A stretch of 64,000 nucleotides of DNA from an uncultured Actinomycetes bacterium (lineage in GTDB: Bacteria > Actinomycetota > Acidimicrobiia > Acidimicrobiales > Ilumatobacteraceae), in contig CAIQJP010000099.1 of assembly GCA_903872155.1 (NCBI GenBank), forward strand, positions 1 through 64,000, written 5' to 3'. The position numbers were made by a program, and so were the translations under genes. This document shows, piece after piece, positions 24,681 to 55,568 of this stretch. The notes below the pieces were generated by a model. The model did not search any database, was not told where the DNA came from, and was given only the letters and a program-made list of their open reading frames with translations. How positions within the stretch are numbered: position 1 is the first letter of the stretch; each line of letters begins with the position of its first letter.

Positions 24681-24735
24681 GTGCTTCTGGTGTCGTTTTA
24701 GTTGGCTATACCGATAAAAGTGACACCAGAATCAC
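24681..24735. terminator. Convergent-junction stem-loop, copy 2
   Basis: Perfect 10-bp outer stem TTCTGGTGTC (24685-24694) / GACACCAGAA (24722-24731), an inner wobble-rich stem, and the loop region GGCTATACC that copy 3 also has. A T run at 24741-24745 follows on the plus strand. It lies between the stops of the His-rich gene and znuC. Confidence 0.75.
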
Positions 24736-36064: not shown

Positions 36065-36106
36065 TGAAGTTCTCTTTTCGTGAACTAAATCGACGTTGGG
36101 TCTGTT

Positions 36107-36134
36107 CACAAACTAATCGGTGGATTAGTTTGTG
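36107..36134. promoter_or_regulatory. Operator-like inverted repeat, site 2
   Basis: 12-bp perfect arms CACAAACTAATC (36107-36118) and GATTAGTTTGTG (36123-36134), spacer GGTG. It is midway between the divergent P450 (36064) and molybdoenzyme (36181) starts. The central 20 bp match site 1 at 17 positions, so one regulator probably controls three transcription units. Confidence 0.68.
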
Positions 36135-36180
36135 TACACACCCGTGGGGACGGGACCAATTGCTCTATGTAGGGGGAAAC

Positions 36181-38343
36181 ATGTCGACGACTGCCGATCA
36201 CGAAATTTCAACGCACCTATCCTTCTGCCGCTTCTGCCACGCCAGTTGCCCGATCGAAGTCGACGTTCAAGAGGGTCGCGCTGTTGCTATTCGTGGAGTT
36301 GCCGACGACCCGATCTTTGCTGGGTACACCTGCATTAAGGGCCGCCAGATTCCTGAACAAATGACTCACCCCTCACGCTTGCTCAGTTCGTTACGCCGCC
36401 GTCCCGATGGAACCTTTGAAGAGATCTCGTCAACTTCAGCCATGGACGAAATCGGCGCCAAGTTGCGACAAATCGTTGATACCTACGGACCACGTGCCGT
36501 CGCGTCCTACACCGGAACTGGCGGCTACCAAAACTCACTCGCCGTTCCTGTCGCCCGCGCGTTCCATCAAGGCTTCGACTCACCTTCGTTCTATACCTCG
36601 GTCACTATCGACCAACCAGCGAAATCAACAGCACCGTTTCGCGTCGGTATCTGGGAAGCGGGATATCACAACTTCAGCGATGCCGAAGTGCTGCTCGCCA
36701 TTGGCTACAACCCAATGGTGTCAAGCTTTGGACCAGTTGGTGGATTGCAAGGAACAAACCCGTACGTGGTTTTGCGTGAAGCAAAAAAGCGTGGAATGAA
36801 ATTGATCGTTATCGATCCACGTCGCACTGAGTTCGCTTCTCAAGCCGATATTCACTTGGCACCAAAGCCTGGTGAAGACCCCACGTTGATGGCCGGCATC
36901 TTGAAGGTTGTCATTGATGAAGGTTTATTTGATCACGAATTCTGTGATCAGTGGGTCGCCGATCTGCCGCAACTCGCCGATGCCGTTTCGGCATTTACCC
37001 TTGACTACGTTGCACAACGTTGCGATGTTCCAGCCGATGACATCGTGGCCGCGGCGCGCATGTTTGCTTCAGCCAAGAAGGGAACAAGTGGAACTGGTAC
37101 TGGTCCATCAATGGCTCCGCACTCTGGTCTCACCGAACATCTCTCGATTGCGCTGAACACCATTTGTGGTCGCGTGAATCGCGAGGGCGACAAGCTCGAA
37201 AGCGGTTACTTCTTGTATCCCGAAACACCCCGTCGCGCTCAAGTGCACGCCGCTCGACTCGCTGCGTCAGGAGCGCCCTCACGTATGCGCAATTTGCGAG
37301 GTATTCGTGGCGAGATGTTGACAACAACTTTGGCCGAAGAAATCTTGACACCGGGCGAAGGACAAGTGCGCGCACTCATCGTGAGCGGTGGCAACCCAGT
37401 TGTTGCGTGGCCCGATCAAGAACTCACACTCAAGGCGATGAAAGATCTTGAACTCCTCGTCGTGATTGATCACCGCATGTCGTCGACAGCCGAGTTCGCC
37501 CATTACGTCGTTGCCCCAACTCTCTCACTTGAACGGGCCGACATTCCGCACTTGATGGATCGCTGGTTCCGTGCTCCATACACCAACTACACCGATGCCA
37601 TCACCAAGCGTGAGGGCGATGTGTTGAACGAGTGGGAAGTGTTCTGGGAACTCGCGAAGCGCATGGGATCAACGCTCCCCTTCCCAGGTGGTCAGACTCC
37701 TATGGATGTTCGTCCAACCGATGATCAAATGATCGACCTCGCGTACGCCGGTTCACGGATGCCCATGGATGAAGTGCGAGCAAACCGCAGAAAAGTTCAT
37801 CCCGATAAAACCATGACGGTTTCGGCCGCCGATCCCGATTGCACCGCCAAATTCACGGTTGCTCCTGATGACATCGTGGCCGAGATGGCCGAGATCGTGG
37901 TCGAAGGAGACGGTGCAGCTGCTCTTGGTATCGATCCTTCTCTGTACCCATTCCGCCTCGTCAGTCGCCGCCTGAAGCATGTCTTGAACTCATATGGATC
38001 AGATCTGTCGGTTCTTGGAGCTAAGGGTTCGTCAAACTCGGCCTATATGAACCCCGACGATATGAAAGATCACGATCTTGTGGACGGTGATCTCATTGAG
38101 ATCTTCTCACCACGGGCCTCGGTGCAGGGTCTCGTCGAGTCTGCACCCGATGTTCGACGCGGGGTGATTTCGATGGCTCACTCATGGGGAGGATCGTCGC
38201 TCACCGATGAAAAGGTACGCGACATTGGTTCGCCAACAAGCCGGCTTGTCTCCGTTGACAAGGGTTACGATCGCATTAACGGCATGGTTGTCCAAAGCGC
38301 CATTCCTGTACGCATCGCAGTCGTCGAGCACATCAATCGTTGA
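36181..38343 (+). CDS. Molybdopterin oxidoreductase, stand-alone catalytic subunit
   Basis: 720 residues from ATG 36181 with the motif AGGGGGAAAC; the longer frame upstream crosses the operator. Cys16, Cys19, Cys23 and Cys51 (CRFCHASC...TCIKG) bind a [4Fe-4S] cluster. GYNPMVSSFGP, LIVIDPRRTEFASQADIHLAPKPGEDPTLMAG and SGGNPVVAWPDQE are typical bis-MGD contacts of the DMSO-reductase superfamily; a C-terminal MopB_CT-like barrel follows. No Tat signal, so it is cytoplasmic. No electron-transfer or membrane subunit is adjacent. The molybdenum ligand cannot be identified with confidence. First gene of an operon with the probable selenoprotein. Confidence 0.9.
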   Translation: MSTTADHEISTHLSFCRFCHASCPIEVDVQEGRAVAIRGVADDPIFAGYTCIKGRQIPEQMTHPSRLLSSLRRRPDGTFEEISSTSAMDEIGAKLRQIVDTYGPRAVASYTGTGGYQNSLAVPVARAFHQGFDSPSFYTSVTIDQPAKSTAPFRVGIWEAGYHNFSDAEVLLAIGYNPMVSSFGPVGGLQGTNPYVVLREAKKRGMKLIVIDPRRTEFASQADIHLAPKPGEDPTLMAGILKVVIDEGLFDHEFCDQWVADLPQLADAVSAFTLDYVAQRCDVPADDIVAAARMFASAKKGTSGTGTGPSMAPHSGLTEHLSIALNTICGRVNREGDKLESGYFLYPETPRRAQVHAARLAASGAPSRMRNLRGIRGEMLTTTLAEEILTPGEGQVRALIVSGGNPVVAWPDQELTLKAMKDLELLVVIDHRMSSTAEFAHYVVAPTLSLERADIPHLMDRWFRAPYTNYTDAITKREGDVLNEWEVFWELAKRMGSTLPFPGGQTPMDVRPTDDQMIDLAYAGSRMPMDEVRANRRKVHPDKTMTVSAADPDCTAKFTVAPDDIVAEMAEIVVEGDGAAALGIDPSLYPFRLVSRRLKHVLNSYGSDLSVLGAKGSSNSAYMNPDDMKDHDLVDGDLIEIFSPRASVQGLVESAPDVRRGVISMAHSWGGSSLTDEKVRDIGSPTSRLVSVDKGYDRINGMVVQSAIPVRIAVVEHINR

Positions 38344-38382: not shown

Positions 38383-38898
38383 ATGGCTCGTATCAATGTT
38401 CCTGATGGAGAAGGTTTAGAAGCTCACCGGATGTGGAAGTTGGCGCCCCATATGGGTGCTGGCATGAGCGCGATGAGTGAAGCCGTCTATGTGAAATCGA
38501 GTTTGAGCATCCGCGAACGTGAAGTAGCACGTATGCGAATCGCCCAACTCAATCAATGCGTCGTTTGACTGAATACTCGAGCTGCATCGGCGATGCAGCA
38601 AGGATTAAGTGACGAAACCTACAACTCGGTTCAGCATTACCACGACCACCCCGACTTCACCGATCGTGAGCGACTCGCAGCCGAATACGCAGAACGTTTT
38701 GCTATCGATCACACGTCGGTTGATGATGAGCTGTGGAGTCGCCTACAAAAAGTCTTTAGCGACACCGAACTACTTGAACTCACCGTGACCATTGGTTTTT
38801 GCGTCGGAATGGGTCGTGCCTATCAAGTTCTCGATGTGGCTCGCGACTTCGACGTATTGTGGAGTCGAGAACCCGAAACTAAAACAACCGACGAATAA
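38383..38898 (+). CDS. AhpD/carboxymuconolactone-decarboxylase-like protein, probable selenoprotein (CxxU)
   Basis: A 171-residue reading frame if the single in-frame TGA at 38566-38568 is read as an amino acid. The first part starts with a GGGAGA ribosome-binding site and includes SLSIREREVARMRIAQLNQC; after the TGA it continues LNTRAASAMQQGLSDETY to DVLWSREPETKTTDE with family-like sequence throughout. AhpD-type proteins use a CxxC redox pair; here it reads Cys59-Val-Val-TGA62, so the stop codon stands exactly at the second Cys. A SECIS-like hairpin follows. The downstream half has no ribosome-binding site of its own. Translation as selenocysteine at position 62 is strongly suggested; a nonsense-mutated gene is the alternative. 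Confidence 0.82.
38566..38599 (+). promoter_or_regulatory. Candidate selenocysteine codon and bacterial SECIS hairpin
   Basis: TGA at 38566-38568, then a perfect 8-bp stem GCTGCATC (38581-38588) / GATGCAGC (38592-38599) with apical loop GGC. Twenty nucleotides separate the TGA from the loop, whose first two bases are G. This agrees with the usual bacterial SECIS rules: short distance to the apical loop and a G at its first or second position. Confidence 0.75.
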
Positions 38899-38907
38899 GG
38901 ATTGATC

Positions 38908-39282
38908 ATGACTCCACTCGAAACAGTCAACGCTTTCATCCAAGCGCTCGAAAACCGTAACGTTGATGCAGCAGTTGCCCTCGTGAGTGATAACTGTGAA
39001 TACGACAATGTGCCAATGGGCAAAGTGTTCGGACCCGAAGCGATTTCAACAATGCTCAAGCCGATGATCGAAGGTTGTAGCGAAGTTGCCTGGCCCGTAC
39101 ATCGCGAGGCTGCAACTGGGAACTATGTCTTCAACGAACGCACCGACAAGTTTCATATGCCCTTTGGCTGGCTGGAAATGCCCGTGACCGGCGTGTGGGA
39201 AGTAGTCGATGGCAAGATCACCCTGTGGCGTGACTATTTCGATCTTCAGACCTACATGAAGCAACTACCAACTACTAAATAA
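38908..39282 (+). CDS. Limonene-1,2-epoxide-hydrolase-like / SnoaL-fold protein
   Basis: 124 residues from ATG 38908, with AAGGA just upstream; a TTG two codons earlier is possible. The fold is a cone-shaped SnoaL/NTF2 barrel. ERTD supplies Arg78 and Asp80, and LWRDYFD supplies Asp109, which correspond in order to the Arg-Asp-Asp triad of limonene epoxide hydrolase as I remember it. It would hydrate an epoxide to a diol in one step. Third gene of the molybdoenzyme operon; ends in stem-loop copy 3. Confidence 0.78.
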   Translation: MTPLETVNAFIQALENRNVDAAVALVSDNCEYDNVPMGKVFGPEAISTMLKPMIEGCSEVAWPVHREAATGNYVFNERTDKFHMPFGWLEMPVTGVWEVVDGKITLWRDYFDLQTYMKQLPTTK

Positions 39283-39284
39283 CC

Positions 39285-39343
39285 TTGTGATTCTGGTGTG
39301 GTTTTATTTGGCTATACCAACTTAAACGACACCAGAACCACAG
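39285..39343. terminator. Convergent-junction stem-loop, copy 3
   Basis: Outer stem TTCTGGTGT (39291-39299) / ACACCAGAA (39329-39337), an imperfect inner stem, and central GGCTATACC as in copy 2; flanks CTTGTG and CACAGG also pair. Starts 2 nt after the epoxide-hydrolase-like stop and ends 18 nt before the livF stop. Confidence 0.72.
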
Positions 39344-50421: not shown

Positions 50422-51267
50422 GTGGCACATCATGCATACGGGGTTGGATCAGGTGGCATCGCCGGCGTCGGCTCGCGCCAAACAATATTGGCGTACTACA
50501 GCATGCGCGGCGTCGATTTTGAACAACGAGTAGCAGCCGCATCGGCTGCTGGCTTTGATGGCATCGGATTTGGAGTGGGCGAATACTTACAACTGCGTGC
50601 GAATGGAACGAGTGACGACGACTTCAAGCAAGTGCTGTCTCAACACAACATTCGCATTCTTGAACTTGAAGCTCTTCGACTCGTCGACGACAAGTCAGCG
50701 CTTGACTTTGAACATGTGGCCAGAACATTCGGAGCAGAGCGCATACAAGTCATCGCCCCATTTGGTGCGAACAAAGACATTGACCTTGATGTTGCAGCGC
50801 AATGGCTCGGCGCCTTAGCAGAACGCACTGCTGACGCGGATGTGCATTATGCACTTGAGTTTTTGCCGCCAACAAAGGTTCCAGACATTGCAACTGCACA
50901 GAATTTTGTTCGCCGAAGTGGGCATCCAAATGTTGGTCTCTGCGTTGACACATGGCATGTATTCCGCGGTGCTGGCGTGTCGTCGCTCGCGGATCTTGAT
51001 TATTCGCTGGTCAAGAATATTCAAGTTGATGACGGAACAATGACGCCAAGTATGGACGACTACATTCAGGATTGCATCCACAATCGTGAGCTTCTCGGTG
51101 CAGGCGAATTTGATCTCCAACAGTTCTTTGAATTAACGCCGCCCAACGCTCCTATCAGTGTCGAGATCATCGACGACGATCTTGATCTGATTCCGGCTTT
51201 CGAGCGGGCTCAACTTCAGGCGTCATCTCTACAACGCTTAATGGCGCGCCGCGATCGGCAAGACTGA
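50422..51267 (+). CDS. Sugar phosphate isomerase/epimerase-like TIM barrel (AP endonuclease family 2 fold)
   Basis: 281 residues from GTG 50422, with the ideal ribosome-binding site GGAGGAAAC; the frame is open 102 codons upstream, across the Rieske start, and that part is rejected. Conserved barrel segments: FEQRVAAASAAGFDGIGFG, ALEFLPPTKV with a metal-binding Glu, CVDTWHVFR with Asp/His ligands, and a C-terminal SVEIIDDDL with another Glu. Such enzymes epimerise sugars or related ketoacids. It starts the 50422-54510 operon. Confidence 0.8.
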   Translation: MAHHAYGVGSGGIAGVGSRQTILAYYSMRGVDFEQRVAAASAAGFDGIGFGVGEYLQLRANGTSDDDFKQVLSQHNIRILELEALRLVDDKSALDFEHVARTFGAERIQVIAPFGANKDIDLDVAAQWLGALAERTADADVHYALEFLPPTKVPDIATAQNFVRRSGHPNVGLCVDTWHVFRGAGVSSLADLDYSLVKNIQVDDGTMTPSMDDYIQDCIHNRELLGAGEFDLQQFFELTPPNAPISVEIIDDDLDLIPAFERAQLQASSLQRLMARRDRQD

Positions 51268-55034: not shown

Positions 55035-55517
55035 ATGTCCATCCTCGATCGACCAGTACAAATTGCTTACAGCGCCCCAGGGACCAACACCCTCGAAGAG
55101 GCCGCCAACGAATTTCGCCAACGCACCAGCTGCGGTCCTTTCGTTTTTGCCCACCACATAGAGATCAACTCGTGCACGATCAATGGAGTGGCGAGCACAT
55201 TCGATCATTCGTCGGCTTACGGCTGGTGGGGCGAGATCATGGTTGAGCTCGTACGCGAACACACCGCACCTCTAGGACCAAGCCCATCGGGATTACATCA
55301 CATGGCATTCATGGTTGATTCGTTACAAGTCGGCGTTGATTGGTGCGCACAGCAAGGTTGGCCTCTCACCCTTCATGCCCAAACGAGCGGCGGACAAGAG
55401 TTTGTCTTTTGCGACGCACGACACGACCTCGGACATTTCATCGAAATGTACGAACCGTCCGAACGTTTACTCAACTTCTACGACTACGTCAAGAATCTTG
55501 CGTCAACCCCATCGTGA
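55035..55517 (+). CDS. VOC (glyoxalase/bleomycin-resistance) family protein
   Basis: 160 residues. VQIAYSAPGTNTLEEAANEF and GLHHMAFMVDSL, then GHFIEMYEPSERL contain the paired beta-alpha-beta-beta-beta modules of VOC proteins, with His/Glu residues that could bind a metal (HHIEIN, HHMAF, HFIEMYE). The reaction is unknown. Its TGA stop lies inside stem-loop copy 4. Confidence 0.78.
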   Translation: MSILDRPVQIAYSAPGTNTLEEAANEFRQRTSCGPFVFAHHIEINSCTINGVASTFDHSSAYGWWGEIMVELVREHTAPLGPSPSGLHHMAFMVDSLQVGVDWCAQQGWPLTLHAQTSGGQEFVFCDARHDLGHFIEMYEPSERLLNFYDYVKNLASTPS

Positions 55518-55568
55518 TTCTGGTGTGGATTTGTTGCGTATAGCGCAACAAATCCACACCAGAATCAC
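55514..55568. terminator. Convergent-junction stem-loop, copy 4
   Basis: A perfect 25-bp inverted repeat (arms 55514-55538 and 55544-55568) with a 5-nt TATAG loop. The stem contains the stop codon of the VOC gene (55515-55517). The outer part matches the other copies (GTGATTCTGGTG / CACCAGAATCAC). Confidence 0.8.

Follow-up and report, generated by a model that had tools for sequence, protein, structure and literature searches.

A predicted CxxU selenoprotein of the CMD/AhpD-like superfamily encoded beside a molybdopterin oxidoreductase gene in Ilumatobacteraceae

How should a bacterial gene be read when a single TGA interrupts its frame exactly at the second cysteine of a CxxC redox motif: as a broken gene, or as one encoding a selenoprotein? 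The locus that raises this question lies in a 64,000-nucleotide stretch of DNA (the whole of which we refer to as the window) from an uncultured member of the Ilumatobacteraceae, where an initial annotation, made from the sequence alone, had proposed a probable selenoprotein in an operon with a molybdoenzyme gene. Here, we describe the evidence from decoding machinery, a conserved TGA, a conserved and covarying hairpin and Cys-containing orthologs, all of which supports that proposal. The TGA at codon 62 is almost certainly a selenocysteine (Sec) codon, as predicted by these comparisons, and the frame, which belongs with the carboxymuconolactone decarboxylase (CMD)/AhpD-like proteins, a selenoprotein gene; that Sec would be inserted at UGA62 by means of the hairpin, to give a C59-x-x-U62 redox enzyme of this superfamily, is in our judgement very probable.

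The interrupted frame and its hairpin

Codon 62 (38566-38568, + strand) is the single in-frame TGA of the 171-codon frame, and the translation across it matches the Pfam CMD domain PF02627 with an E value of 2.9e-9 (37.2 bits against a gathering cut-off of 23), bearing out the earlier description of an AhpD/CMD frame split only at the second Cys of CxxC (Table 1). Among named MAGs and genomes, which include Ilumatobacter nonamiensis, 20 of 20 loci are full-length orthologs (70-99% identity) with TGA at this codon, while the 20 closest loci among 151 genomes searched within the family (65-99% identity; a set that includes the window's own locus and overlaps the first) have TGA in 17 cases and Cys in three. 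No TGA-form ortholog of either set has a further stop ahead of its normal end. The Cys codons are TGT in L050 and L052 and TGC in L057, which are 72-81% identical, and Cys is the residue that had been expected here in homologs. Median pN/pS is 0.20 ahead of the TGA and 0.22 after it; the downstream half, as first noted, is not decayed.

If a Cys gene had suffered a nonsense mutation, or its sequence contained an error, and the downstream half were dead or separately translated, a lone TGA in one frame would also result, and a standalone ORF from the ATG at 38593 exists on paper. This reading, to which we attach practically no credence, is refuted by the conserved TGA, which is no sequencing error because it recurs in orthologs as low as 65% identity, from numerous assemblies made independently of one another, save three with Cys codons. 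The reading is further opposed by the equal purifying selection on the two halves and by the placement of that ATG, the first possible restart, which falls within the hairpin's 3' arm and is preceded by no evident ribosome-binding site.

Table 1. Features of the locus, in window coordinates.
Feature	Position	Strand	Remarks
Molybdopterin oxidoreductase gene (DMSO-reductase superfamily)	36181..38343	+	Pfam PF00384, PF04879, PF01568
CMD/AhpD-like selenoprotein gene (predicted)	38383..38898	+	171 aa if TGA = Sec
Active-site motif C59-V-V-U62 (CxxU)	38557..38568	+	TGA at second Cys of CxxC
SECIS-like hairpin	38581..38599	+	8-bp stem, loop GGC 38589-38591
Limonene-epoxide-hydrolase/SnoaL-like gene	38908..39282	+	Pfam PF07858

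The hairpin proved to be as initially described, in stem, loop and spacing: the arms GCTGCATC (38581-38588) and GATGCAGC (38592-38599) pair perfectly, the stem beginning 12 nt and the loop 20 nt past the TGA. Short windows around it fold better than shuffled sequences (z -2.1 to -2.8) and a 101-nt window folds no better than shuffles, so that fold energy alone is weak evidence. Likewise, the hairpin by itself is suggestive only, because the window has, counting both strands, 2,973 TGA trinucleotides, and 7 of them are followed in like placement by a perfectly paired 8-bp hairpin. Several of the other such sites belong to repeated palindromes between genes, and one case that was checked, at 50520, lies outside any open frame. 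An Rfam scan of the region returned no SECIS and no other credible match.

Comparison with relatives carries more. Folding recovers the same 8-bp hairpin in 21 of 21 distinct TGA regions of orthologs, giving a conserved hairpin that closely follows the TGA and has a G in its loop, as in SECIS-type elements. Once L062, a distant homolog, is added to the alignment, the paired fraction of cells is 98.9% and three pairs are altered on both sides, a number matched by none of 500 shuffles, with two of the three contributed by L062 alone. In one exchange, UA to CG (columns 18 and 32), a silent GCT>GCC change goes together with one between CAG (Gln) and CGG (Arg), and one sequence holds the UG intermediate. 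Codons 68-70 (GCA TCG GCG), which lie under the stem, show zero synonymous variation despite a 4-, 6- and 4-fold choice, against a relative synonymous entropy of 0.64-0.71 in the rest of the gene, where most other codons vary freely. Judged on these alignments, a chance origin of the hairpin is ruled out by its conservation across relatives. The Cys-form orthologs L050, L052 and L057 are without it and thus form a natural control.

Selenocysteine decoding and the fate of the site in relatives

A role in Sec decoding calls for the corresponding machinery, and the initial annotation had made its proposal depend on selA, selB and selC, a check that left it standing. In the source draft genome (2.81 Mb, 97.4% complete), contig C42 carries selA (407 bits) with selB (292 bits) next to it, both exceeding their cut-offs; selD (336 bits), with Cys at its active site, lies on contig C129; and contig C87 encodes a tRNA-Sec (67 bits) whose anticodon is TCA. 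The genome also has an unrelated UGSC-family gene (L083; contig C38 of G000) whose U position is an in-frame TGA, followed 11 nt downstream by a hairpin of 8 bp with a 3-nt loop, which makes this gene's product a second predicted selenoprotein; the formate-dehydrogenase-like genes of the same genome have no in-frame TGA. Together, the machinery and the UGSC-family gene support Sec decoding in this genome without recourse to the CMD gene. Co-occurrence across the family is no sharp test, since selA (115 of 151 genomes) and tRNA-Sec (104 of 151) are too common. Among TGA-form draft genomes, selA was not found in G103, nor tRNA-Sec in G092, G135 and G024, which incomplete assembly explains, as each has the other gene.

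That the TGA is read as another residue, through a recoded Trp or Cys tRNA or leaky readthrough, with the hairpin regulatory in some other way, we consider very improbable. The DNA alone does not show the inserted residue; however, TGA also ends the molybdoenzyme gene (38341-38343) and is thus not a general sense codon, Cys is the residue that replaces it in orthologs, and the genome combines a complete Sec system with the UGSC-family gene, another TGA gene from an established Sec family and with a like hairpin.

Returning to Sec at codon 62, the Cys-form genomes too have selA and tRNA-Sec, and so the Sec trait fails to separate Sec from Cys forms. In a tree built with the site masked, L050/L052 and L057 stand apart, the latter beside Sec sequences, and a two-state Sec/Cys label requires four changes over the whole sequence set, several branches being weakly supported. 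The simplest reading of this tree would be that, among the orthologs, Cys took the place of Sec on two or more occasions while selA and tRNA-Sec were retained. The locus thereby offers a natural experiment, in which one site has either Sec with a hairpin or Cys without one in genomes that still have Sec machinery, and because of this one can directly test why a single site retains Sec or loses it. More distant paralogs have TGA at the position in L062 (40% identity), L072 (47%), L073 and L074 (the last a shorter match), and Cys in those checked, L063-L068; several Sec-containing CMD subfamilies seem, from their sequences, to coexist in this bacterial family. L062 and L072 seem to have a different hairpin of their own, at about the same distance from the TGA. 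A search of viral contigs found no relative of the CMD gene.

Fold, neighbourhood and possible function

A structure model built with distant homologs reached a pLDDT of 88.5, replacing a poor first model from close relatives only (62.7). Foldseek matched it with probability 1.00 to 7xw1, 2ijc and others, giving an AhpD-type fold; the AhpD-type structures matched also include 2prr, and a further match is the debrominase Bmp8. E47, C59, Sec/Cys62 and R66 are invariant in a wide alignment. R66 stands where PA0269 has the His after CxxC that would be expected of a functional AhpD alkylhydroperoxidase, and the classical AhpD active site is therefore not simply copied.

From these comparisons we infer Sec insertion at UGA62, redox chemistry and a molybdoenzyme partnership. 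Briefly, ribosomes would reach UGA62, where SelB would bind the hairpin 12 nt downstream and deliver Sec-tRNA(Sec), itself made by SelA using selenophosphate from SelD. The product would be a 171-residue protein with a helical fold of the AhpD type, in which the C59-x-x-U62 pair most likely performs thiol/selenol redox chemistry.

The molybdoenzyme gene ends about 40 nt upstream of the CMD start codon on the same strand. Nearly every orthologous locus likewise has it upstream and in the same orientation, those of Ilumatobacter and the Cys forms among them, the exceptions being L038/L055 and L060. This conserved gene order supports the predicted operon. The epoxide-hydrolase-like gene is the downstream neighbour in closer relatives only. 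Since the CMD and molybdoenzyme genes adjoin in almost all close relatives, their products probably have a partner or pathway in common, and on gene order a functional tie is plausible. The molybdoenzyme has a 4Fe4S motif, passes the cut-off of no NCBIfam model and presumably has neither Cys nor Sec at the usual Mo-ligand position (TIDQPAKST).

The initial annotation also named a peroxidase, a role that may apply and is only one possibility. To a selenoprotein with a non-peroxide task we would give an even chance; it might perform reductive dehalogenation, or reduce a disulfide or product of the neighbouring molybdoenzyme, P450 or epoxide-hydrolase-like enzymes, a reading that concerns the substrate only and is compatible with Sec insertion as set out above. 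Such a task fits the match to Bmp8, the conserved molybdenum oxidoreductase neighbour, the Arg in place of His and the lack of any NCBIfam peroxidase model above its cut-off; against it, AhpD-type proteins give the closest fold matches, and several of these are named antioxidant proteins. More tentatively, and on balance doubtfully, Ilumatobacteraceae-type Actinobacteria might have a lineage-wide two-gene unit, in which the CxxU protein would be a dedicated redox partner or product-processing enzyme of the molybdopterin oxidoreductase and Sec would have given way to Cys at least twice. The conserved neighbour in any case offers a starting point for working out what CMD-type CxxU selenoproteins do.

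Two kinds of inverted repeat also occur in the intergenic DNA. A 21-nt repeat (36098-36143, 90% complementary), operator-like in appearance, lies between the divergent P450 and molybdoenzyme genes. A palindrome recurs in the window at 2683-2747, 24681-24735, 39287-39341 and 55514-55568, with outer arms GTGATTCTGGTG/CACCAGAATCAC common to the copies and differing centres; its 12-mer has 8 matches (at most one mismatch) against 0.38 expected. One copy sits just past the epoxide-hydrolase-like gene, at a convergent junction, and the element is possibly a repeated terminator or REP-like.

Comparison with known families

Under standard annotation such a gene is cut short or divided in two at its TGA, and a conserved active-site selenoenzyme of aquatic Acidimicrobiia is for this reason easily missed; our literature search found no paper joining selenoproteins with Acidimicrobiia. 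A close structural counterpart, Pseudomonas aeruginosa PA0269 (2ijc, 2o4d, 7xw1), has the same fold with CxxC at the same place, from which the predicted protein differs in Sec for the second Cys and Arg for the His four residues later, the two being about 25% identical. The Mycobacterium AhpD structures 1knc and 1gu9 are further removed (10-13% identity), and Bmp8 (6ohi, 6ohj) has the superfamily fold in common at 14% identity. The best NCBIfam match is NF053654 (E 1.4e-19), a YciW-related (seleno)protein family that is AhpD-related and has Sec or Cys members, to which the CMD protein does not belong, scoring 70.5 bits against a curated cut-off of 310.

The initial annotation had stated, correctly, that AhpD-like CxxU selenoproteins are known from marine surveys. 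CMD-domain CxxU selenoproteins were described in 2005 from four Sargasso Sea sequences (PMC1088965), and 'AhpD-like 2' in 2008 from 70 GOS sequences with PF02627, commoner in nonmarine samples (PMC2398784); a 2026 review includes a CMD/AhpD-like selenoprotein family (PMC13188914). By description, these survey proteins resemble ours in PF02627, in a CxxU motif with Sec second and in having Cys homologs. In the freshwater sample GS20, UGSC-containing proteins rank first and Trx-like 1 precedes 'AhpD-like 2', which is third (PMC2398784), paralleled here by a genome with both CMD and UGSC TGA genes. As earlier ocean surveys had reported CMD CxxU selenoproteins, the gene is a new, unmodelled branch and not a new kind; what appears from sequence to be new is the in-place replacement of Sec by Cys, the conserved adjacent molybdoenzyme gene and the Arg for His after CxxC.
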